Origin: Planobispora longispora
GTDB lineage: Bacteria > Actinomycetota > Actinomycetes > Streptosporangiales > Streptosporangiaceae
NCBI RefSeq assembly: GCF_016863135.1
Contig: NZ_BOOH01000034.1
Location: 1-64,000, forward strand
Direction: 5' to 3'
DNA length: 64,000 nucleotides
In this document: one piece after another, positions 1,700 to 11,945 of the stretch
Layout of the letters: each line of letters begins with the position of its first letter
How positions within the stretch are numbered: position 1 is the stretch's first letter
Made by a program: the position numbers and the translations under genes
The notes under the pieces: generated by a model
What the model was told of the DNA's origin: nothing
What the model saw: the letters and a program-made list of their open reading frames with translations, nothing else
Databases searched by the model: none

Positions 1700-2359
1700 T
1701 CACGGCTCCCGGGGGCCGTAGCGGGCCGCGGACGCCCCGGTGACCATGGCCCAGTACCGGTCGCCGTAGGACCAGTGCCACCACTCGGTCGGGTAGTTGA
1801 CCAGGCCGGCCGGTTCCAGGGCCGAGGCGAGGAGCTTGCGGTGGTGGCGGGCCTCGGTGGACAGGCCGGCGGCGGCGGTGTAGCAGGCGCCGTCGCTCTG
1901 CTCGGGGGTGGCGTTGACCGGGGTGCCCATGTCGAGTTCGACGCCGTCCTCGGTGCACAGGGTCAGGTCCACCGCCGCGCCCGCGGTGTGCGGGGCGACC
2001 TCGACGGGTGAGACGTAGCGGCTGGCCGCCGACCGGAGCTCCTCGGGCGACATCCCGGGGAACTCCGCCCGCAGGGACGCCGAGTAGTCGTCGAAGATCT
2101 GCTGCTGCGTCACGATCGGCCGGTACCCCTCCACGACCAGCAGCCGGTAGCCGCCGGGGAGCTGGCCCTGCGCCGCCTCCAGCCGGGCCAGCAGTCCTTC
2201 CCGGAGATGGGCGTAGGCGCCCTCGGGGTCGGCGAGCCGGTCGTCGGTGCGCAGCCGGCCGCGGATGTCGACCAGCGGCTCTCCGCTCTCCTCGACCGGG
2301 ATCGAGACGACTCGGGGGTCGGAGATCAACACGATTTCCCGCATATGCGCAATTGTCAC
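1700..2359 (-). CDS. D-alanyl-D-alanine dipeptidase, VanX-like (peptidase M15D)
   Basis: Zinc dipeptidase that cleaves D-Ala-D-Ala. The full VanX set is visible in 219 aa: R80 in EGYRP, zinc ligands H124 and D131 in HTAGAAVD, catalytic E192 and ligand H195 in EWWH. No signal peptide, so it acts in the cytoplasm. The GTG start overlaps the TGA of the upstream ROK gene (GTGA), implying translational coupling. An internal ATG at 2344 is an alternative start. No vanH or vanA ligase is nearby, so housekeeping peptide scavenging or wall recycling is more likely than glycopeptide resistance. Confidence 0.88.
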   Translation of the reverse strand: MTIAHMREIVLISDPRVVSIPVEESGEPLVDIRGRLRTDDRLADPEGAYAHLREGLLARLEAAQGQLPGGYRLLVVEGYRPIVTQQQIFDDYSASLRAEFPGMSPEELRSAASRYVSPVEVAPHTAGAAVDLTLCTEDGVELDMGTPVNATPEQSDGACYTAAAGLSTEARHHRKLLASALEPAGLVNYPTEWWHWSYGDRYWAMVTGASAARYGPREP

Positions 2360-3516
2360 ACTGTGTCGGAGAACACCGCTTCCCGGGCCTGCTGGAGGGC
2401 GGAGACCAGGGCGCCCCGCAGCACCGGGTTGCCCTCGACCTCGGTCACCACGACCCGGGGCCGGCTCGGGCAGATCCGCGCCACGGCCTCCTCGACCCGG
2501 CCCGCCAGCGCCTCGCCCCCGGCCCGGCCGACGTCGCCGCTGAGCACGATCAGGCCCGGGTCAAGGACGACCGCCACCGCCGCCACGCCGACCGCCAGGC
2601 GGCCGGCGAGCTCGTCGAGGAAGCCCTCGGGGCCGTCGGCGACGGCCGCGCGGACCCGTTCGCCCACCGAACGGCCGTCGACGCCGTACGCGCCCGCCAG
2701 GCTGGTGACGGCGTCCCCGCCCACCAGGCGCTGGAAGGAGCCCGACTGGGGCTCGCTCACGTCGGTCGGGAGCGGCTCCCCGGGGACCGGGAGCCAGCCG
2801 ATCTCGCCCGCGCCCCCGGTGAAGCCGCGGTGCAGCCGCCCGCCGAGCATGACCCCCAGGCCCTGGCCGACCCCCGCCCAGACGAGCACGAAGTCGTCCA
2901 CCTCCCGGGAGGCGCCGTGGGAGCGTTCGGCCAGCGCGGCCAGGTTCACGTCGTTCTCGATCGTCACCGGGACGTCGAGGTCGCGGCGGAGCCCGGCGAG
3001 CACGCCGTCGTGCCAGGAGGGCAGGTCGAAGGAGAAACGCATGTCCCCGGTCCGGGGATCGACGACGCCCCGGGTGCCGATCACGAAGGCGCGCAGCCGC
3101 GTGAGATCGATGCCCGCCGACGCGCAGGCCTTCTCGATGACGCCGCGCACCAGCCGCACCGGGTCCTCGTACCCGCTGGGGTCGGCCGAGACCTCCGCGA
3201 CGAGCTCCCCGGTGATGTCGGCGATCCCCGCGCTGATCCGGTCGGGCAGCACGTCCAGGCCCGCGACGTACGCGCAGGAGGGCACGACGCCGTAGAGCGC
3301 GGCGTTCGGGCCGCGCCCGCCGGCCTGCTCGCCGACCACCGCGACGAGGTCGCGCTCCTCCAGCCTGACCAGCAACTGGCCGGCGGTGACCTTGGACAGG
3401 CCGGTGTGCTCTCCCAGCTCCGCGCGGGTGAGCGGACCGCTGGACAGCAGCAGTTCCAGCGCCGCGCGGTCGTTGAGCTGGCGCAACAGCCGGGGTGTTC
3501 CCGGGCGTCTGGGCAC
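2356..3516 (-). CDS. ROK family transcriptional repressor (ROK1)
   Basis: 386 aa. Residues about 8-70 form a winged helix (LTRAELGEHTGLSKVTAGQL), followed by a ROK sugar-kinase-like domain. The acidic sugar-contact motif ENDVNLAALAE is present. The kinase phosphate loop DxGGT is replaced by GLDVLPD, and the ROK zinc motif (CxCGxxGC) and the GH of GEIGH are missing (GEIGW). It is therefore a non-catalytic regulator. GTG start with GGGGGAGG upstream. Operon with the VanX-like gene and divergent from a sugar ABC operon, its likely target together with itself. Very similar to ROK2 (9159-10337). Confidence 0.9.
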   Translation of the reverse strand: MPRRPGTPRLLRQLNDRAALELLLSSGPLTRAELGEHTGLSKVTAGQLLVRLEERDLVAVVGEQAGGRGPNAALYGVVPSCAYVAGLDVLPDRISAGIADITGELVAEVSADPSGYEDPVRLVRGVIEKACASAGIDLTRLRAFVIGTRGVVDPRTGDMRFSFDLPSWHDGVLAGLRRDLDVPVTIENDVNLAALAERSHGASREVDDFVLVWAGVGQGLGVMLGGRLHRGFTGGAGEIGWLPVPGEPLPTDVSEPQSGSFQRLVGGDAVTSLAGAYGVDGRSVGERVRAAVADGPEGFLDELAGRLAVGVAAVAVVLDPGLIVLSGDVGRAGGEALAGRVEEAVARICPSRPRVVVTEVEGNPVLRGALVSALQQAREAVFSDTV

Positions 3517-3541
3517 GATCTGCCTCCCCCGTCACGATCCG

Positions 3542-3584
3542 CTAACGATCGTTTCTTTTAAGAAAGTTTCTTGTTAGTTTAGCC
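3542..3584. promoter_or_regulatory. Candidate ROK operator, copy A
   Basis: AT-rich island between divergent ROK1 and the ABC operon. It holds AAGAAA-g-TTTCTT (3560-3572), an overlapping TTTCTT-tt-AAGAAA (3552-3565), and flanking CTAAC (3542-3546) and GTTAG (3573-3577). The 27-bp stretch 3558-3584 matches 10403-10429, upstream of ROK2, at 21 of 27 positions in the same orientation relative to the repressor gene. Binding is inferred. Confidence 0.65.
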
Positions 3585-3738
3585 GCAGTCAGCCCGGCGG
3601 CAAGGGCACGAGAACGCCGCGGGATGTCAGAGCGCCGACCGTATGGAGGGCGTCTTCGATCAGGTACGGCCTGGCATGGGGACCAGACCGGCACCCGAAG
3701 CGCGACCCCGACGCGAAGCCGGGAAGGGAGAACCCCAA

Positions 3739-5064
3739 ATGAAGTTCACGAAGATTGCCGTTGCCACGGCCACCACCGCCGCCCTGGCTCTGGGCCTCGC
3801 CGCCTGCGGCTCCAGCGAGCCCGCCACCGAGACCGCCCCGAAGGCCGACGCCTCCGCCGGCGGCAAGAAGTTCGCGGGCGAGACTCTCACCCTGTGGCGT
3901 CTGGGTGAGAGCAACCCGGCTGCCCAGAAGTACACGGACGCCCTGGTCGCCGCCTTCGAGGCGGAGACCGGTGCGAAGACCAAGGTTGAGTGGATCCCGT
4001 GGCCCCAGGTGAACGACAAGTTCACCGCGGCCGCCGCGGGCGGCGCCGGCCCGGACGTCACCGAGATCGGCAACGACCAGGTGCCGCTCTGGCGCAGCCA
4101 GGACGCCCTGCACCCCATCACCGCGGTCTTCGGCGGTGGTGACCACGCGCAGATTCCGAAGAACCTGCTCTCCCTGGAGACCGACGGCGGCGAGATCTAC
4201 GCCGCGCCGTGGGGCGCCGGCACCCGCGCCGTGCTCTACCGCAAGGACTGGTTCGACGAGCTCAAGATCGAGGCCCCGAAGACCTGGGACGAGGTCATCG
4301 CCGCGGCCAAGAAGATCCAGGAGAAGAAGGGCAAGGACGTCGACGGCTTCGCCTTCAACGGCGGCTCCGACGCCAACCACCTCCTCGGCGCGCTCGCCTG
4401 GGCCGAGGGCGGCGAGTACGCCCTCAAGGAGGGCGACAAGTGGGTCGGCAAGCTGACCGACCCGGCGTTCAAGGCCGGTTTCGACACCTACACGAAGATC
4501 GTCACCGAGGGCCTGTCCAGCAAGTCCCGTCTCGGCCAGAACTCCGCCGACATCCGTACCCGCTTCGCCAACGGCAAGGTCGGCATGTACCTGACCGCCG
4601 GCTGGGACATCGCCACGATCAAGGAGGAGAGCTCGGGCAAGGTCGCCGAGGACCAGCTCGCCTTCTTCCCGCTCCCGAGCAAGAGCGGCGGGGCGGCCCC
4701 GGCCTTCTTCGGCGGCAACGACATCGCCGTCTGGAACGACGCCAAGAACAAGGACCTGGCGACCGAGTTCGTGAAGTTCTCCACCACCAAGGAGTGGGCG
4801 GGCCGGTACGCCTCCGAGGGCGGCCTGCTGCCGATCTACCCCGAGCAGCTCGAGAAGCTGAAGGAGGACCCGGCGCAGGCTCCGTTCGCCGAGGCCTTCG
4901 CCAACGCCAAGGCGCTGCCGGCCGACTCCAACTGGACCGAGGCCGGTGAGACCAAGGCCGTGCTGCAGAACGCCGCCCGGTCGGTCATCGAGGGCAAGGC
5001 CACCGCTGACGAGGCTCTGGCCAAGGCCAACACGGAACTCGAAGAGATCCTGAACCAGCAGTAA
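3739..5064 (+). CDS. Sugar ABC transporter solute-binding lipoprotein
   Basis: 441 aa. I start it at ATG 3739 (MKFTKIAV), with AAGGGAG 8 nt upstream. An upstream in-frame extension to 3643 has no signal peptide and is rejected. The lipoprotein signal ends in LGLAAC (Cys about residue 26). The rest is a family-1 extracellular binding protein (SBP_bac_8 type: TLWRLGESNPAAQKY near the N-terminus, APWGAGTRAVLYRKDWF in the hinge region). It captures an oligosaccharide or sugar derivative for the permeases that follow directly. No ATPase gene is present; such systems usually share an MsiK-type ATPase. Substrate is not readable from the sequence. Confidence 0.92.
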   Translation: MKFTKIAVATATTAALALGLAACGSSEPATETAPKADASAGGKKFAGETLTLWRLGESNPAAQKYTDALVAAFEAETGAKTKVEWIPWPQVNDKFTAAAAGGAGPDVTEIGNDQVPLWRSQDALHPITAVFGGGDHAQIPKNLLSLETDGGEIYAAPWGAGTRAVLYRKDWFDELKIEAPKTWDEVIAAAKKIQEKKGKDVDGFAFNGGSDANHLLGALAWAEGGEYALKEGDKWVGKLTDPAFKAGFDTYTKIVTEGLSSKSRLGQNSADIRTRFANGKVGMYLTAGWDIATIKEESSGKVAEDQLAFFPLPSKSGGAAPAFFGGNDIAVWNDAKNKDLATEFVKFSTTKEWAGRYASEGGLLPIYPEQLEKLKEDPAQAPFAEAFANAKALPADSNWTEAGETKAVLQNAARSVIEGKATADEALAKANTELEEILNQQ

Positions 5065-5066
5065 CC

Positions 5067-6077
5067 ATGGCGAACACGTCGACGCTCGCCCGGGGCGGGG
5101 GCAACCCCCCCGCCTCCGGGCGGCCCCCCACGCGCTCCAGGCGCCGGACGAAGGCCAGCGGGATGCCCGAGTGGGTCATCCCGTACGTCCTTCTCATCCC
5201 CGGCCTGCTGGTCATCGCCGGGTTGCTGCTCTACCCGACGATCCAGATGGTCATCATGTCCTTCCAGAAGGTCGGGCTGCGCCAGATCCGCGGCGTGCCG
5301 GCCGAGTCGGTGGGCACGGAGAACTACACCCAGATCTTCGAGAGCGAGATCTTCTGGTCCTCGCTCCGCAACACCGTCACCTTCGCCGTCGTCACGGTGG
5401 CCCTCACCCTGATCCTCGGCACCGCGGTGGGCACCCTGCTCAACAGGTTGAGCAGGAAGATGTCCACCTTCGTGGTCGTCGGCATCATGTCCGCGTGGGC
5501 GGTGCCGCCGGTCGCCCAGGGCGTCATCTGGCGGTGGCTCTTCGACGCCGACGCGGGCATCATCAACTGGGCGCTCAACCTGCTCCCCGACTGGTTCTCC
5601 GAGCTGCTGTTCGGGCGGTCCGACTGGACCGGCGAGCCCTGGCTCAACGACGCGTTCACCATCTACCTCGTCCTGATCGTCTGCGTGGTCTGGGCCTCGT
5701 TCCCGTTCATCGCGGTCTCGGTGCTGGCCGGGCTCAAGGGCATCCCCGCCGAGCTCTACGAGGCGGCCCGGGTCGACGGCTCCGGCGCCTGGCGGACCTT
5801 CAGAACGATCACGCTTCCGCTGCTCAGGCCGGTCTTCGCGGTGCTGACGATCCTGTCGATCATCTGGAACTTCAAGGTCTTCAGCCAGCTGTACGTGCTG
5901 ATGGGCGGGCCGAACAACCGCGAGGCGTTCAACCTGTCGATGTTCTCCTTCGCCGAGGCCTTCCGCAGCCCGCCGAAGATGGGCAGCGGCGCGGCGATCG
6001 CGGTGGTGCTCACGCTGCTGCTGCTCGTCGTGACCGCTTTCTACGTCCGGCAGATCGTGAAGACGGAGGAGATGTGA
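5067..6077 (+). CDS. Sugar ABC transporter permease, MalF type
   Basis: 336 aa, starting 2 nt after the binding-protein stop. Cytoplasmic basic N-terminus, first helix at about 33-55 (YVLLIPGLLVIAGLLLYPT), further helices to the C-terminus. The binding-protein-dependent transport signature (EAA loop) is clear in ELYEAARVDGSGAWRTF. Forms the membrane channel with the downstream permease. Confidence 0.92.
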   Translation: MANTSTLARGGGNPPASGRPPTRSRRRTKASGMPEWVIPYVLLIPGLLVIAGLLLYPTIQMVIMSFQKVGLRQIRGVPAESVGTENYTQIFESEIFWSSLRNTVTFAVVTVALTLILGTAVGTLLNRLSRKMSTFVVVGIMSAWAVPPVAQGVIWRWLFDADAGIINWALNLLPDWFSELLFGRSDWTGEPWLNDAFTIYLVLIVCVVWASFPFIAVSVLAGLKGIPAELYEAARVDGSGAWRTFRTITLPLLRPVFAVLTILSIIWNFKVFSQLYVLMGGPNNREAFNLSMFSFAEAFRSPPKMGSGAAIAVVLTLLLLVVTAFYVRQIVKTEEM

Positions 6078-6994
6078 CGACCTCACTCACCGGCGGCAAG
6101 CCGGACGCCTCCACCCGCAACCGACCGGCCGCGAGCGGGGGGATGGATCCCCGTACCCGCAAGCGCCTCGGTGTGATCGCGCTCAACACGGCCGGAGTCC
6201 TGGTCTTCCTGTTCGCGACCTTCCCCGTCTACTGGATGGTCTCCACCGCGTTCAAGACCAACGACCAGATCTTCACGACGGACTTCATCCCCATCCCGAC
6301 GGAGATCACCTTCGATCACCTGGACCGGGTGCTCACCGAGGGCGTGGCCGGCAACTCCATCTGGGTCTACATGCGCAACAGCGCCATCGTGGCCCTGGGG
6401 ACCGTGCTCATCGGCGCCGTCTTCGCCCTGCTGGCCGCCACGGCCATCGCCCGCTTCCGGTTCCGGGGCCGCACCAGCTTCCTGATCACCCTGCTGATCG
6501 TCCAGATGATCCCGGCCGAGGCCCTGCTCATCCCGCTCTTCCTCAACGTCAGGCGACTCGGCCTGTACGACCAGCTGCTCGGCCTGATCGTGATCAACGT
6601 CGGCCTGACCCTCCCCTTCGGCATCTGGATGCTGCGCACGTTCGTCGCCGCGGTGCCCAAGTCGCTGGAGGAGGCGGCCTGGATCGACGGCGCGAGCCGG
6701 TTCACGACCTTCCGGAAGGTCCTGTTCCCCCTGGTGGCCCCCGGCCTGGTGGCGACGAGCATCTTCTCGTTCATCACCGCCTGGAACGAGCTGATCTTCG
6801 CGCTCATCCTCATGTCGGACTCCTCCGGCTACACGATGCCCGTCGCGCTGCAGTTCTTCTTCGGGCAGCGGGGCACCGACTGGGGCGCCATCATGGCCGG
6901 CTCCACGATGATGACCATCCCGGTCGTCGTCTTCTTCCTCCTGGTGCAGCGGCGGATGGTCTCCGGCCTCGTCGCTGGCGCAGTCAAGGGCTGA
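6074..6994 (+). CDS. Sugar ABC transporter permease, MalG type
   Basis: 306 aa from the GTG at 6074, which overlaps the upstream TGA (GTGA). The longer open frame back to 5171 is a shadow of the preceding gene. First helix about 35-57, EAA loop SLEEAAWIDGASRFTTF about two-thirds in, final helices before QRRMVSGLVAGAVKG. Second half of the permease heterodimer. Confidence 0.92.
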   Translation: MTTSLTGGKPDASTRNRPAASGGMDPRTRKRLGVIALNTAGVLVFLFATFPVYWMVSTAFKTNDQIFTTDFIPIPTEITFDHLDRVLTEGVAGNSIWVYMRNSAIVALGTVLIGAVFALLAATAIARFRFRGRTSFLITLLIVQMIPAEALLIPLFLNVRRLGLYDQLLGLIVINVGLTLPFGIWMLRTFVAAVPKSLEEAAWIDGASRFTTFRKVLFPLVAPGLVATSIFSFITAWNELIFALILMSDSSGYTMPVALQFFFGQRGTDWGAIMAGSTMMTIPVVVFFLLVQRRMVSGLVAGAVKG

Positions 6995-7011
6995 CCCCCG
7001 GTGCCGGTACG

Positions 7012-7036
7012 GCCCGCGCCCACAAGGCGCGGGCCG
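7012..7036 (+). terminator. Intra-operon stem-loop between permease and GH3 gene
   Basis: Perfect 10-bp stem GGCCCGCGCC/GGCGCGGGCC with a 5-nt loop, 18 nt after the permease stop and 55 nt before the GH3 start. No T-tract. It could stabilise the 3' end of the transporter message or partly terminate, lowering GH3 expression. Confidence 0.55.
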
Positions 7037-7091
7037 CGCCCGGCCCTGCCCGTATCCGAATCCCTCCTCAGCTAAGGAGCGCTCCAGCGCC

Positions 7092-8546
7092 ATGTCCGAG
7101 TTCATCGCGGGTCCCAGCGAGCAGGGGCTGTACCGCCTCGCGGCCGGCACGTTGCTCGTCGCCTTCCAGGGGACCACCGCTCCCGAGTGGGTGCTCCGGG
7201 AGCTGGACAACGGCCTCGGCGGCGTCACCCTCTTCGGCTTCAACGTCGCCGACCCCGGTCAGCTCTCCGCGCTGACCGCGAGGTTGCGCGCCGCGGGCGA
7301 ACCCGTCATCTCGCTGGACGAGGAGGGCGGCGACGTCACCCGCCTCGCCTACCACGTGGGCAGCCCCTACCCGGGCAACGCGGCCCTCGGCGCCGTCGAC
7401 GACGTCGAACTGACCCGGAGCGTCTACCGTTCCATCGGCGACGACCTGGCCCGCTGCGGGATCAACCTGGACATGGCCCCGGACGCCGACGTCAACACCG
7501 CCGACGACAACCCGGTGATCGGCACCCGCTCGTTCGGCTCCGACGCCGCACTCGTCGCCCGGCACACGGTCGCCGCCGTCCAGGGCCTGCAGTCCGCGGG
7601 CGTGGCCGCCTGCGTCAAGCACTTCCCCGGCCACGGCGCCACCCGGCAGGACTCCCACCTGGAGATCCCTCTCGTCGACGCCTCCATGGAGCTGCTGCGC
7701 GAGCGCGAGCTCGTGCCGTTCCGCGCCGCCATCGAGGCCGGGACCATGTCCGTCATGACCGCGCACGTCCGGGTCCCCGCCCTCACCGGCGACCTGCCCG
7801 CGACGCTCTCGCCCGCCGCGCTGACCACGCTGCTCCGCGGCGAACTGGGCTACGACGGCGTGGTGATCTCCGACGCCCTCGACATGCGGGCGATCACCGA
7901 CGCCTACGGCCTGGCCGGGGGCGCGGTGCTCTCCCTGGCCGCGGGGACGGACCTGCTCTGCCTCGGCCCGGTCCCCAGCGAGGACGACGTCCGCGCGATC
8001 ATCGCCGGGATCGTCGCCGCGGTGCGGGACGGCAGCCTGCCCCTGTCCCGCCTGGAGGAGGCCGCCGAGCACGTCTCCCGCCTCCGCGCCTGGTTCGGCG
8101 AGCCCCGGCAGGTCGCGAACGGCGAGAACGTGATCGGCCTGACTGCGGCCCGGCGCGCGGTCAGCCTCACCGGCTCGGCCGCCCCGCTGGTCAACCCGCT
8201 GGTGGTCGAGATAGACACCCCTCCCACCATCGCGGTGGGCGACGTGCCGTGGGGCTTCGCCCCGTGGCTCTCCCGGGCGGAGATCGTCCGGGTCAAGCCC
8301 GAGACCGCCGACGTTCCCGGCCTCCTGGAGGGCGCCGTCGGCCGTTCCCTGGTCATCGTCGTCAAGGACGCGCACCGCTACGAGAGCAGCCAGACGGTCG
8401 TGTCGGCGCTGCTGGCCGCCCGCCCCGACGCCACCGTGGTGGAGATGGGCCTGCCGATCTGGCGCCCGGAGGCCGCCGCGTACCTGGCCACCTACGGCGC
8501 CGCCCGGGCGAACGCCCAGGCCGCGGCCGAGCTCCTCGGCGTCTGA
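7092..8546 (+). CDS. Beta-N-acetylhexosaminidase, GH3 NagZ-like
   Basis: 484 aa. Carries the NagZ-subfamily signature KHFPGHGATRQDSHLEIP (176-193), whose D187-x-H189 dyad serves as general acid/base in that subfamily, and the nucleophile D261 in VISDALDM. No signal peptide, so it probably hydrolyses imported GlcNAc-containing saccharides in the cytoplasm. Residues after about 350 form a C-terminal domain as in two-domain GH3 enzymes. Start at 7092: AAGGAG (7074-7079) is 12 nt upstream, longer than usual, and lies in the palindrome GGAGCGCTCC (7076-7085), which could mask it. Last clear member of the sugar operon. Confidence 0.9.
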   Translation: MSEFIAGPSEQGLYRLAAGTLLVAFQGTTAPEWVLRELDNGLGGVTLFGFNVADPGQLSALTARLRAAGEPVISLDEEGGDVTRLAYHVGSPYPGNAALGAVDDVELTRSVYRSIGDDLARCGINLDMAPDADVNTADDNPVIGTRSFGSDAALVARHTVAAVQGLQSAGVAACVKHFPGHGATRQDSHLEIPLVDASMELLRERELVPFRAAIEAGTMSVMTAHVRVPALTGDLPATLSPAALTTLLRGELGYDGVVISDALDMRAITDAYGLAGGAVLSLAAGTDLLCLGPVPSEDDVRAIIAGIVAAVRDGSLPLSRLEEAAEHVSRLRAWFGEPRQVANGENVIGLTAARRAVSLTGSAAPLVNPLVVEIDTPPTIAVGDVPWGFAPWLSRAEIVRVKPETADVPGLLEGAVGRSLVIVVKDAHRYESSQTVVSALLAARPDATVVEMGLPIWRPEAAAYLATYGAARANAQAAAELLGV

Positions 8547-8598
8547 CCCCGGCGGCCCCGCACCGCGACGCGCCCGACTCCCGACGCCTGCGCCCGCC

Positions 8599-8654
8599 GA
8601 CGCGTCCACCCCCCAGCGCGTCCATCCGCCGACGCGTCCATCCCTGACGCGTCC
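8599..8654. repeat. Four-fold GACGCGTC element with 16-nt spacing
   Basis: The palindrome GACGCGTC(C) occurs at 8599, 8631 and 8646, with a one-base variant AGCGCGTCC at 8615. The spacings are 16, 16 and 15 nt. It lies between the GH3 gene and the small gene at 8726. Regular spacing of a palindrome suggests a cooperative protein-binding array, but it may be simple-repeat drift. Confidence 0.55.
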
Positions 8655-8725
8655 GGCCCGCGGAGACCTCCACGGCGTCTGGGCCCGTGGGGGTCACAGA
8701 TCATCACATAGCATCGACGTCAGCC

Positions 8726-9118
8726 ATGCGTACCGTTCGCCTCGAAGGCCCGATCATCGTCGTCACCCCGGACCCGAATCAGGTCATCGGTGACTTCCTC
8801 GGCTATGCCCTCTCGTTGCGGAACCTCTCCGGGCTCTCCCCCGCCGTGGAGTTCGCCGAGCGTTTCTCCCCCGGAGGCCACGGCATGCGCCTGCCCGACA
8901 CCTTCGTGGCCTACCGGGCCGAGGAGCCGGACGACATCCCCGAGGAGTTCGGCGAGCGGTTCGCCGAGGAGCTGGAGCGCAAGGAGCTCTGGGTTCTCAC
9001 GCGGCTGTGGTACGGCCGGACGCCGGAATCCGCCGTCGTCGAGGGCGACGAGCTGCGCCACCTGCTGGACGAGGCCCTCCGGCGGCGACGGGCCGCCTAC
9101 CCGCTGCGGTACGAATGA
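8726..9118 (+). CDS. Hypothetical protein, 130 aa
   Basis: I do not recognise this family. Start at ATG 8726 (MRTVRLEGP); a GTG at 8687 would add 13 residues and neither has a clear ribosome site. Soluble, acidic, no signal or membrane segment. It has a hydrophobic N-terminal strand (GPIIVVTPD) and a charged helical C-terminal half (EELERKELWVLTRLW, DEALRRRRAAY). Same strand as the sugar operon but 180 nt behind it and after the GACGCGTC array, so it may have its own promoter. Confidence 0.6.
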   Translation: MRTVRLEGPIIVVTPDPNQVIGDFLGYALSLRNLSGLSPAVEFAERFSPGGHGMRLPDTFVAYRAEEPDDIPEEFGERFAEELERKELWVLTRLWYGRTPESAVVEGDELRHLLDEALRRRRAAYPLRYE

Positions 9119-9158
9119 CCCGGCGCCCGCGCAGACCGCCGGGTTCCGTACAGGCGCC

Positions 9159-10337
9159 CTAGGAGGCGAAGATCTCCTCGCGGGCCTGCTCCAGCGCCGC
9201 CAGGACCGCGCCGCGCAGGACCGGGTTGCCGTTCACCCCGCTGGCCACCACCTGCGGGCGGACCGGGCAGATCCGGGCCACGGCCTCCTCGATCCGCCCG
9301 GTGAGCGCGTTCCCGCCCGCCTGGCTGACCTCGCCCGCGAGCACGACCAGGCCGGGGTCGAGCACCACGCACACCGACGCCACGCCGAGCGCCAGCCTGC
9401 CGGCGATGTCGTCCAGGAGGGGCTCTCCGCGCTCGCCGGCCTCGACCGCGGCCGCCACGCACTCGGCCCCGCTCCGCCCCGCGAAGCCGTAGGAGGCGGC
9501 CAGCTCGGTCACCGCCTCGGCGCTCACCAGGGACTGCAGGCCGCCGGCGAGCGAGGGCAGCCGTCCGGGCACGGCCCGCACGTCCCCGGCCAGCGGCACG
9601 CCCGGCACCGGCAGGTAGCCGATCTCACCCGCGCTGCCCGAGCGGCCGCGGTGCAGCCGCCCGCCGAGCACGACGCCCAGGCCGATGCCGCGTCCCGCCC
9701 ACAGGAGCACGAAGTCGTCCACGTCGCGGGCGGCGCCGAGCGTGCGCTCGGCGACGGCGACGAGGTTCACATCGTTCTCGATCTTCACGTCGCGGCGCAG
9801 GTCGCGGGCGAGCGCCTCGTGGATGCCCTCGTGCCAGCCCGGCAGGTCGAAGGAGAACCGCACGTCGCCGGTGCGCGGATCGACCACGCCGGGCGTGCCG
9901 ATCACGACGGCGCGCAGCTTGGAGAGCGCGACCTTGGCCGAGCGGCACGCCTTGACCACCGCGTTGTGCACGACCGCGACCGGATCGTCGTGCTCGTCGG
10001 GCGCGACCGTCACCTCGGCGACGATCTCACCGTGGATATCGGCGATGGCGGTGGTGACGAATTCCGGGCCGACGTCCAGACCCGCTACGTAGGCGGATGA
10101 GGGGACAATTCCGTAAAGAGCGGCATTGGGCCCTCTGCCCCCGGCCTGCTCCCCGGCGACCTCCACCAGGCCCCGCTCCTCCAGCCGCGCCAGCGTCTGC
10201 GACGCCGTCACCTTGGACAGGCCGGTGAGCTCGCCGATCTGCCCGCGCGTCAGAGGCCCGGAGGTGAGCAACAGCTCCAGGGCGGCCCTGTCGTTGATCT
10301 GCCGCAGCAGCCTGGGCACGCCAGGACGTCGCTCCAT
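9159..10337 (-). CDS. ROK family transcriptional repressor (ROK2)
   Basis: 392 aa from ATG 10337. An ATG two codons upstream (10343) is possible, but 10337 aligns with the ROK1 start (MERRPGVPRLL against MPRRPGTPRLL) and gives better spacing from AGAGAG. Winged helix about 8-70 (LTRGQIGELTGLSKVTASQ), then a ROK domain with ENDVNLVAVAE. As in ROK1 the kinase loop, the zinc cysteines and GEIGH are lost (GEIGY). The high similarity over the first 90 residues marks the two as paralogues. It may sense a related sugar or compete for the same operator. Confidence 0.9.
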   Translation of the reverse strand: MERRPGVPRLLRQINDRAALELLLTSGPLTRGQIGELTGLSKVTASQTLARLEERGLVEVAGEQAGGRGPNAALYGIVPSSAYVAGLDVGPEFVTTAIADIHGEIVAEVTVAPDEHDDPVAVVHNAVVKACRSAKVALSKLRAVVIGTPGVVDPRTGDVRFSFDLPGWHEGIHEALARDLRRDVKIENDVNLVAVAERTLGAARDVDDFVLLWAGRGIGLGVVLGGRLHRGRSGSAGEIGYLPVPGVPLAGDVRAVPGRLPSLAGGLQSLVSAEAVTELAASYGFAGRSGAECVAAAVEAGERGEPLLDDIAGRLALGVASVCVVLDPGLVVLAGEVSQAGGNALTGRIEEAVARICPVRPQVVASGVNGNPVLRGAVLAALEQAREEIFAS

Positions 10338-10393
10338 ACCCATGCTCTCTTGTCCGCCGTTTCCCCGTCACTATTACATTCGCAGAATAGCCA

Positions 10394-10429
10394 CCTTATT
10401 CATTAATAAGGGTTCCTGATAGTTTAGCG
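10394..10429. promoter_or_regulatory. Candidate ROK operator, copy B
   Basis: CCTTATT-catt-AATAAGG inverted repeat (10394-10411) followed by GGTTCCTGATAGTTTAGC. The 27 bp at 10403-10429 correspond to 3558-3584 with six mismatches. It lies 66 nt upstream of the ROK2 start, between ROK2 and the divergent Rrf2 gene. Confidence 0.65.
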
Positions 10430-10511: not shown

Positions 10512-10961
10512 ATGCGCCTATCCGCCCGTGTCGACTATGCCTTGCGTGCCGCCGCCGAACTCGCCGCCGCCGGCGAAGGCCCAACCACCGTGGGCGAGCT
10601 GGCCAAGGAACAGGACATGCCTCCCAAGTACTTGGAGAACATCCTGCTCCAGATGCGCCGCGCCGGGTTGGTCCGCGGTCAGCGCGGCCCCGAAGGCGGC
10701 TACGTGCTGGCCCGGCCCGCGAGCGAGATCAGCCTTGCCGACGTGATCCGCGCCGTTGACGGCCCGCTGGCCAACGTTCGGGGCGAACGCCCCGAGCACG
10801 TCGGCTACCGGGGGCCCGCCGAGTCTCTGCAGCAGGTCTGGATCGCGTTGCGCGCCAGCGAGCGGGCCATCCTGGAGGAGGTCAGCCTCGCCAGCGTGGC
10901 CAGCGGAGCACTCCCCGCGCGGGTCCGCGAGCTCGCCTCCGACCCCACCGCCTGGGACTGA
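10512..10961 (+). CDS. Rrf2 family transcriptional regulator
   Basis: 149 aa. The N-terminal Rrf2 signature MRLSARVDYALRAAAEL and the wing GPEGGYVLARPASEISLADV are clear. The protein has no cysteine at all, so it lacks the Fe-S ligands of IscR, NsrR or RsrR and must sense something else or nothing. The downstream Nei-like gene starts 18 nt later and is probably cotranscribed. Confidence 0.9.
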   Translation: MRLSARVDYALRAAAELAAAGEGPTTVGELAKEQDMPPKYLENILLQMRRAGLVRGQRGPEGGYVLARPASEISLADVIRAVDGPLANVRGERPEHVGYRGPAESLQQVWIALRASERAILEEVSLASVASGALPARVRELASDPTAWD

Positions 10962-10979
10962 CCCGGCCCGGCCGCGCCC

Positions 10980-11945
10980 ATGCCCGAAGGTGACGTCGTC
11001 TACCGGACCGCCGCGCGGCTCGGGCGGGCGCTCGACGGCCGCCCCCTGACCCGATCCGACTTCCGCGTGCCCCGCCACGCCACGGCCGACCTGACCGGCC
11101 GGACCGTGCTGGAGACCGTCCCCCGGGGCAAACACCTGCTCACCCGCGTCGAGGGCGGCCTGACCGTCCACACCCACCTGCGGATGGAGGGGGCCTGGCA
11201 CATCTCCCCCGCGGGCCGCCGCGTCCCCCCGGGCGATCTCGTCCGCCTGGTGCTGGCCAACGCCGAGTGGCAGGCCGTGGGAGTACGGCTCGGCATGGTG
11301 GACCTGCTCCGCACCGGCGATGAGCGCCGGGTGGTGGGACACCTCGGCCCCGACCCGCTGGGACCGGACTGGGACGCCCGGGAGGCCGTGCGGCGGCTCC
11401 TGGACGACCCCGGCCGGACCATCGGGGAGGCGCTGCTCGACCAGCGCAACCTGGCCGGGATCGGGACGATCTACCGGGCCGAGACGCTGTTCCTCGCGGG
11501 CGTCTGGCCGTGGCGGCCGGTGGCGGCGATCGCGGACGTCCACGGCGACGCCGATGCGGGCGGCGCGACGGGTCCGGGCGGCGACGTGACCCTCAGGGAC
11601 GGCATGGGGATGGACGGCGACACGAAGGCGAGCGGCGCGACGGGTCCGGGCGGCGACGTGGCCGCCAGGGGCGGCGGGAACGCCCGTGGGGGCGCGGGAG
11701 GCGGGCGGAGCGCCGGAGGGCTCATCGGGCTCGTGGAGCTCGCGCGGGAGTTGCTGGAGGCGAACAAGGACCGGCCGGAGAACCGGACGACCACGGGGGA
11801 TCTCCGCCCGGGGCGGGGCATGTGGGTCTACGGCAGGGCGGGGCGGGCCTGCCTTCGCTGCGGCGGCAAGATCAGCCGCGGCGAGATGGGGGCGCGCACG
11901 CAGGAACGCCTGATCTACTGGTGTCCCCGGTGCCAGTCGCCGTGA
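10980..11945 (+). CDS. Fpg/Nei family DNA glycosylase with a glycine-rich insertion
   Basis: Bifunctional base-excision glycosylase/AP lyase that removes oxidised bases. Visible: catalytic N-terminal P2-E3 (MPEGD), K51 in RGKHLL, helix-two-turn-helix about 150-175 (LLDQRNLAGIGTIYRAETL), zinc finger C291-x2-C294 and C315-x2-C318. Length 321 aa against about 265 for the family; the excess is a Gly/Asp-rich insertion at about 185-248, between the H2TH helices and the rest of the domain. It contains a 27-nt perfect repeat. Most like the actinobacterial Nei2 group. Confidence 0.88.
   Translation: MPEGDVVYRTAARLGRALDGRPLTRSDFRVPRHATADLTGRTVLETVPRGKHLLTRVEGGLTVHTHLRMEGAWHISPAGRRVPPGDLVRLVLANAEWQAVGVRLGMVDLLRTGDERRVVGHLGPDPLGPDWDAREAVRRLLDDPGRTIGEALLDQRNLAGIGTIYRAETLFLAGVWPWRPVAAIADVHGDADAGGATGPGGDVTLRDGMGMDGDTKASGATGPGGDVAARGGGNARGGAGGGRSAGGLIGLVELARELLEANKDRPENRTTTGDLRPGRGMWVYGRAGRACLRCGGKISRGEMGARTQERLIYWCPRCQSP
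11562..11660 (+). repeat. 27-nt direct repeat inside the Nei-like gene
   Basis: Identical 27-nt copies at 11562-11588 and 11634-11660, 72 nt apart (24 codons, in frame), each coding GATGPGGDV. They lie in the glycine-rich insertion and indicate that it grew by in-frame duplication. Confidence 0.8.

Follow-up and report, generated by a model that had tools for sequence, protein, structure and literature searches.

What would lead an actinomycete to keep a gene resembling a D-alanyl-D-alanine (D-Ala-D-Ala) dipeptidase in one block with a sugar importer? The question is raised by a locus at the start of contig NZ_BOOH01000034.1 (C34) of Planobispora longispora (assembly GCF_016863135.1; 8.84 Mb in 120 contigs), studied here in a window of 64,000 nucleotides. 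In this locus a VanX-like gene and a gene for a ROK repressor (ROK1), both in the negative strand, diverge from four genes in the positive strand, which encode a solute-binding protein (SBP) and two permeases of an ATP-binding cassette (ABC) importer and a glycoside hydrolase of family 3 (GH3). A second ROK gene (ROK2), again in the negative strand, lies at the far end. A previous reading made from the DNA alone (hereafter the sequence-only reading) had described this composition, and all the genes were found where it had placed them; it had suggested a regulon for scavenging muropeptides or amino sugars. Soil actinomycetes of this group obtain part of their nutrients from chitin and microbial walls, and antibiotic producers are frequent among them. 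With a probability of about 0.6, we consider the block a locally regulated unit for the uptake and cleavage of beta-linked oligosaccharides containing N-acetylglucosamine (GlcNAc).

Amino-sugar scavenging is likely because the two repressors resemble a csnR-like ROK encoded elsewhere in the genome and the box between the divergent genes is a variant of the CsnR box. ROK1 (2356..3516; PF00480 plus MarR_2) and ROK2 (9159..10343), both of the CsnR type, were 65% identical to each other; identity to the csnR-like ROK was 45% for either of them, and a helix with the sequence TGLSKxTAxQ was common to the three proteins; the CxCGxxGC motif, presumably the ROK zinc motif, was absent from all of them. 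The genome has five ROKs of the ROK2 kind (at least 46% identity to ROK2, ROK2 included). The probable operator, AAGAAAGTTTCTT, is located between ROK1 and SBP at 3560..3572; 43 bases separate it from the annotated start of ROK1 and 166 from SBP, and its 3' flank reads GTTAGTTTA. The published CsnR box consensus, as given in the sections of PMC6097792 consulted, is AGGAAANTTTCCT, in which positions 5 and 9 are the most important; the window box has two changes relative to it and keeps both of these positions. A degenerate box with its flank, TTCCTGATAGTTTAG, resembling the ROK1 operator, was present 5' of ROK2 at 10399..10428, and this site was variable in relatives.

A search of the 8.84 Mb genome with the pattern ARGAAASTTTCYT revealed 13 exact sites and four more at one mismatch, and the reversed pattern, used as control, gave 0. 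Genes were assigned to the exact sites, i.e., the window site and 12 others, and nine of these 12 precede genes probably concerned with amino sugars: four GH18 chitinases (L131, L132, L134 and L137), a chitin-type lytic polysaccharide monooxygenase with CBM5/12 (L141), a CBM2 protein cut by the contig end, which is the least sure assignment (L142), the csnR-like ROK on contig C23 with a GH4 and a probable kinase of the BadF-type ATPase kind behind it (L136), an SBP that is a clear NgcE, accompanied by one permease or more (L139), and a second GH3 with about 50% identity to that of the window (L138; C34, about 110911-112522). The genes behind csnR had been considered as an SBP and a permease, an assignment rejected on their GH4 and BadF-type ATPase domains. 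The set of genes agrees with the 15-gene CsnR-box regulon, including chitinases, published for Streptosporangium roseum (PMC6097792, in the same sections). Within this genome the AAG...CTT form of the box is confined to the window locus, which suggests local control. In at least five relatives (G001, G003, G006, G008 and G012) a GH3 of the L138 type was located within about 12 kb of NgcE.

The genes for uptake and cleavage are in line with this assignment to different degrees. NAG-type GH3 enzymes (those related to beta-N-acetylglucosaminidases) carry the motif KH(F/I)PGHG....DSH. The window GH3 (7092..8546; PF00933, 244 bits) has KHFPGHGATRQDSH at 176 and its best solved relative was 6k5j, a GH3 beta-N-acetylglucosaminidase, so that the NagZ-type label of the sequence-only reading is supported and the protein is probably such an enzyme. 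A cytoplasmic location, proposed earlier for both GH3 and VanX, is plausible because their N-termini are not strongly hydrophobic (best 15-residue means of 1.28 and 1.19, respectively), unlike that of SBP (1.89), where a lipobox, LAAC, was recognized by eye. SBP (3739..5064; SBP_bac_1, 152.6 bits) is a putative sugar-binding lipoprotein of the CUT1 type, and it is followed by permease 1 (5067..6077) and permease 2 (6074..6994), both with BPD_transp_1 domains; the ten proteins scanned, from the block and its neighbourhood, included no ABC ATPase. NgcEFG has been described as an importer of N-acetylglucosamine and chitobiose (PMC6167110, consulted in part). We ruled out SBP as the standard chitobiose importer, given the clear NgcE with a CsnR box elsewhere in the genome: this true NgcE (C36:106154-107509) scored 670 bits against the NgcE model, whose cut-off is 399.65, and the window SBP 44.8 bits. 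An open reading frame of 143 amino acids (8687..9118, positive strand), with no family match and no counterpart in the loci searched, separates GH3 from ROK2 and is probably outside the unit. The GH3-ROK2 gap in P. rosea is about 130 bases.

The block is more than a chance arrangement and represents a coherent, conserved unit. We compared the best 80 named loci, which are the top VanX-similarity matches listed, and counts among them are therefore not a family frequency. SBP, the two permeases and GH3 were present in 67 of the 80, with SBP on the strand opposite to VanX in every case; in the stretch covered, these 67 loci had a ROK1 match in 66 (the exception was L155) and a ROK2 match in 51. 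VanX was found within 211 bp behind the end of ROK1 in 64 of the 80 loci, 62 with the unit plus L176 and L201. Both the twin repressors of a coherent unit and the coupling of VanX to ROK1, as originally put forward, are thus borne out. The 13 loci without the unit were L163, L176, L185, L189, L201 (a short contig with ROK1 and VanX only), a paralog in P. siamensis (L230) and seven in Streptomyces (L221, L226-L229, L231 and L232). Judging by identity, the transporter is more variable than the neighbouring genes; in L157, for example, SBP showed 44% identity versus 81-83% for ROK1, VanX and GH3. A second GH3 (42-49%) was observed nearby in L154, L155 and L161, which are Streptosporangium and Planomonospora blocks, and in L155 and L161 the pair of GH3 genes is separated by a Condensation-domain gene.

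A set of 80 genomes, P. longispora included, yielded 18 strong (E < 1e-60) and three weak VanX matches. Of 28 VanX loci examined in the relatives, 15 had VanX, SBP, two permeases and GH3 (ROK1 in 14 and ROK2 in 13 of the 15); the remaining 13 were paralogs or, once, a weak match, without the close-form unit. A close-type block, defined by at least 44% identity in SBP and at least 69% in GH3, was present in 19 of the 80 genomes, own counted; no ROK1 was observed in G015 and G042, and no ROK2 in G028 and G030. VanX accompanied it in 16 of the 19 (absent from G008, G037 and G042), and a strong VanX match without the block occurred in two of the other 61 genomes (Fisher p 5e-12, a descriptive value that ignores kinship). 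The sequence-only reading had offered a lack of co-conservation between VanX and the ABC operon in relatives as grounds for abandoning it; by these counts, as among the named loci, the two are co-conserved. The operator region was conserved as well: in all of 18 close-type loci (L032-L046 and L090-L092) the best site between ROK and SBP lay within two mismatches of ARGAAASTTTCYT. Twelve of the 18 had the exact AAGAAASTTTCTT, L037 had AGGAAAGTTTCTT, and AAGAAASTTTCTT was present in 71 of 99 loci scanned, duplicates included. As for the flanks, a gene with a DMFA2_C domain, apparently running off the contig start (1-1612), adjoins VanX in many relatives, and an Rrf2-type regulator, often with a Nei/Fpg-like gene (10512-11945 in the window), is found beside the block in many of them, including the single-ROK form without VanX (see below).

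This simpler form was found in twelve distant loci (L093-L099, L101, L102 and L104-L106), which comprise a ROK, SBP, two permeases and GH3, with only one ROK and no adjacent VanX; Rrf2 came next after the block in 11 of them. Their genomes gave no VanX match except a weak, far-off one in G033. Of three further loci, L100 and L107 had the transporter and GH3 with no ROK match, and L103 had GH3 and ROK only. An AGGAAASTTTC[CT]T box, of the CsnR type, was present in six of the twelve. The single ROK of these twelve loci and the absence of an adjacent VanX suggest that VanX joined the block later; it and ROK2 both seem to have been gained in the Planobispora/Streptosporangium/Nonomuraea lineage, in an order of events that we infer. 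In the ROK tree, ROK1 (17 rows) and ROK2 (16 rows) formed separate clades, each with an SH-aLRT of 98 and no single ROK inside, in a tree built by a quick method with a long outgroup branch, where the forks joining the clades and the single ROKs remain open. NgcE was present in 16 of the 19 close-type genomes versus none of the 12 single-ROK genomes, a distribution that fits a changed role of an old locus, although kinship alone could give the same. A more elaborate history, which we regard as speculative and rather improbable, would be that of a re-purposed ancestral chitin-sugar locus: NgcEFG would have taken over chitobiose, after which the repressor was duplicated, the operator changed and the D,D-dipeptidase recruited, so that the ROK pair would now couple the uptake of wall-derived GlcNAc glycans to the breakdown of D-Ala-D-Ala.

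The VanX-like gene (1700..2359; PF01427, 64.4 bits against a cut-off of 27) would encode an M15 zinc dipeptidase. ROK1 overlaps its annotated start by 4 bases, and orthologs indicate that the true start is probably an inner ATG (residue 6, about 2344). VanX 1r44 was the best solved relative by sequence (E 5.5e-10) and also the top Foldseek match, with a TM of only 0.55-0.59 (model pLDDT 83, 16 sequences); the score against the VanX equivalog was 41 bits, far under the cut-off of 320. Residues R80, H124, D131, E192 and H195, which by alignment to 1r44 we take to be the VanX arginine, the two zinc histidines, the aspartate and the glutamate, were kept in 80 of the 80 best named homologs, whose matched stretches contain no stop. 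Glycopeptide resistance was considered and discarded, as no vanH-type or ligase gene was found among the ten proteins scanned. In the parts of PMC8698665 consulted, vanHAX is reported within Streptosporangiales only in Actinomadura, VanX is treated within vanHAX and a pdx operon, and VanX/DdpX are named M15D. Among twelve paralog loci (L047-L058), VanX-like paralogs were located 76-136 bp behind a gene for an AfsR-type Streptomyces antibiotic regulatory protein (SARP, with BTAD, NB-ARC and TPR domains), in the same strand, in seven (L047, L049, L050, L052, L054, L056 and L058).

Under the reading that we favour, the SBP lipoprotein would capture a short oligosaccharide, the two permeases would import it together with a shared ATPase presumably encoded elsewhere, and the cytoplasmic GH3 would release GlcNAc. 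ROK1, and probably ROK2, would bind the box at 3560-3572 and repress both the SBP-permease-GH3 operon and ROK1-VanX, until the imported sugar released the repression. VanX, whose substrate would be D-Ala-D-Ala or a dipeptide like it, would come under this control as well. The unit would be related to the single-ROK locus and, in the Planobispora/Streptosporangium/Nonomuraea lineage, would have come to hold two ROKs, a drifted box and VanX behind ROK1.

Several observations weigh against this reading. Chitin sugars are already provided for, to judge by protein family, by the NgcE importer and the second GH3, each with its CsnR box, and the presence of VanX in the unit has no biochemical explanation. 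The window box departs from the CsnR consensus at two positions in a form unique in the genome, so CsnR itself may not act there; moreover, the reference for the ROK comparison was the genome's own csnR-like ROK and not CsnR of S. lividans. Three boxes (L133, L135 and L140) had no clear amino-sugar gene, and no box was found within 320 bases in six of the twelve distant single-ROK loci, nor in L100 and L107, these misses being weak evidence because an SBP match may begin within the gene. The GH3 scored 172 bits against the beta-N-acetylhexosaminidase model NF003740, under its cut-off of 207. Finally, SBP was closest in both sequence and fold to beta-glucoside-binding proteins, and the chitin-binding NagB1 ranked lower by sequence and did not appear in the list of the 50 best fold matches. 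The closest solved SBPs are, per their titles, structures with cellobiose, sophorose, laminaritriose and gentiobiose-type ligands, and the best fold matches of a structure model of the window SBP (mean pLDDT 86) were again beta-glucoside binders, which is not decisive for the ligand. These matches would suit the import of a beta-glucosidic oligosaccharide of plant or microbial origin, with a GH3 of related but non-GlcNAc specificity. We hold such a substrate to be quite unlikely, since the GH3 has the NAG-type KHFPGHG....DSH motif and N-acetylglucosaminidases among its best solved relatives, and both the box and the ROKs belong to the CsnR type; we gave these pointers to amino sugars more weight than the similarity of SBP, which does not point to them.

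Since NgcE covers chitobiose, the window unit may have another ligand, and cell-wall fragments come to mind: the importer would take GlcNAc-MurNAc (MurNAc, N-acetylmuramic acid) or a short muropeptide from turnover or lysed neighbours, GH3 would split off GlcNAc like NagZ, VanX would recover D-Ala from D-Ala-D-Ala, and MurNAc would pass to MurQ and AnmK encoded elsewhere. This possibility is favoured by the operator region that a NAG-type GH3 shares with a conserved D,D-dipeptidase-like gene, and MurQ and AnmK are indeed present in the genome. MurQ, AnmK and MurR/RpiR were, however, not found in the block, and their best matches are all on contig C57. There MurQ (71365-72234) follows oligopeptide-type ABC genes and precedes a beta-lactamase-family gene, after which comes an RpiR regulator; a third GH3 (81654-82736) and AnmK (92704-93846) lie further on, and MurQ was above the cut-off in 33 of the 80 genomes. 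This separate MurNAc locus, with its own GH3, makes a wall-derived ligand unnecessary for the window importer, though it may still have one. VanX is also missing from the ABC-GH3 unit in three of the 19 close-type genomes and at all 12 distant loci with a single ROK, and the substrates of VanX enzymes are free dipeptides and not the stems of muropeptides. Muropeptide uptake was consequently lowered from a main reading to an unlikely one; of the scavenging regulon first proposed, the amino-sugar link stands through the ROKs and the operator, and the muropeptide part is not supported. VanX may, alternatively, follow regulators rather than the transporter, because of the SARP-linked paralogs mentioned above, of L176, which has ROK2-ROK1-VanX without ABC and GH3, and of L185, where VanX lies beside Rrf2/Nei without the rest of the unit. 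It would then belong with the regulator gene, as a dipeptidase by which a D-amino-acid signal is made or removed. This seems very doubtful: VanX stays with the ABC-GH3 unit in 67 of the best 80 named loci, including L155 with no ROK1 match, L176 is a contig of a metagenome-assembled genome, and we know of no sensor role for VanX.

The repressor that precedes the D-Ala-D-Ala-dipeptidase-like gene is of the chitosan type, and dozens of related species keep the two together (67 of the 80 named loci have the unit), a stable association between the metabolism of wall precursors and that of amino sugars. With one operator, two repressors and four proteins, the system is small enough for direct test. 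The sequence-only reading held the composition to be undescribed, and the open-licence literature searched, mostly by title and start of abstract, likewise yielded no account of VanX together with a ROK-CUT1-GH3 unit; two omics papers on P. rosea (PMC8269224 and PMC4514598) gave nothing on this locus by term search.

Among known systems, VanX/DdpX share with the window protein the M15 family, the zinc and catalytic residues and 1r44 as top match in sequence and fold; the window protein differs in its low equivalog score, the lack of vanH/vanA in the block and its ROK and sugar-importer neighbours. MurNAc/muropeptide salvage loci comprise MurQ, AnmK, MurR and NagZ. The block resembles them in its NAG-type GH3 and in a D,D-dipeptidase that would act on a wall building block, but MurQ, AnmK and RpiR are on another contig with another GH3. 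NgcEFG is likewise an actinomycete CUT1 importer linked to GlcNAc sugars, whereas the window SBP is far under the NgcE cut-off and the true NgcE is on another contig. The csnREFGHK cluster of Streptomyces is similar in having a CsnR-type ROK beside a CUT1 importer and a glycosidase, with a palindromic AGGAAANTTTCCT-like box upstream that is common to chitin genes in this genome. The block, in contrast, has a GH3 instead of the GH4 CsnH and lacks the kinase CsnK; it also has two ROKs, the box AAGAAAGTTTCTT and the added VanX, and a separate csnR-GH4-kinase locus (C23) is present in the genome. A CsnR-type ROK with a CUT1 importer and a glycosidase is thus already known; the second repressor, the altered box and VanX are new.

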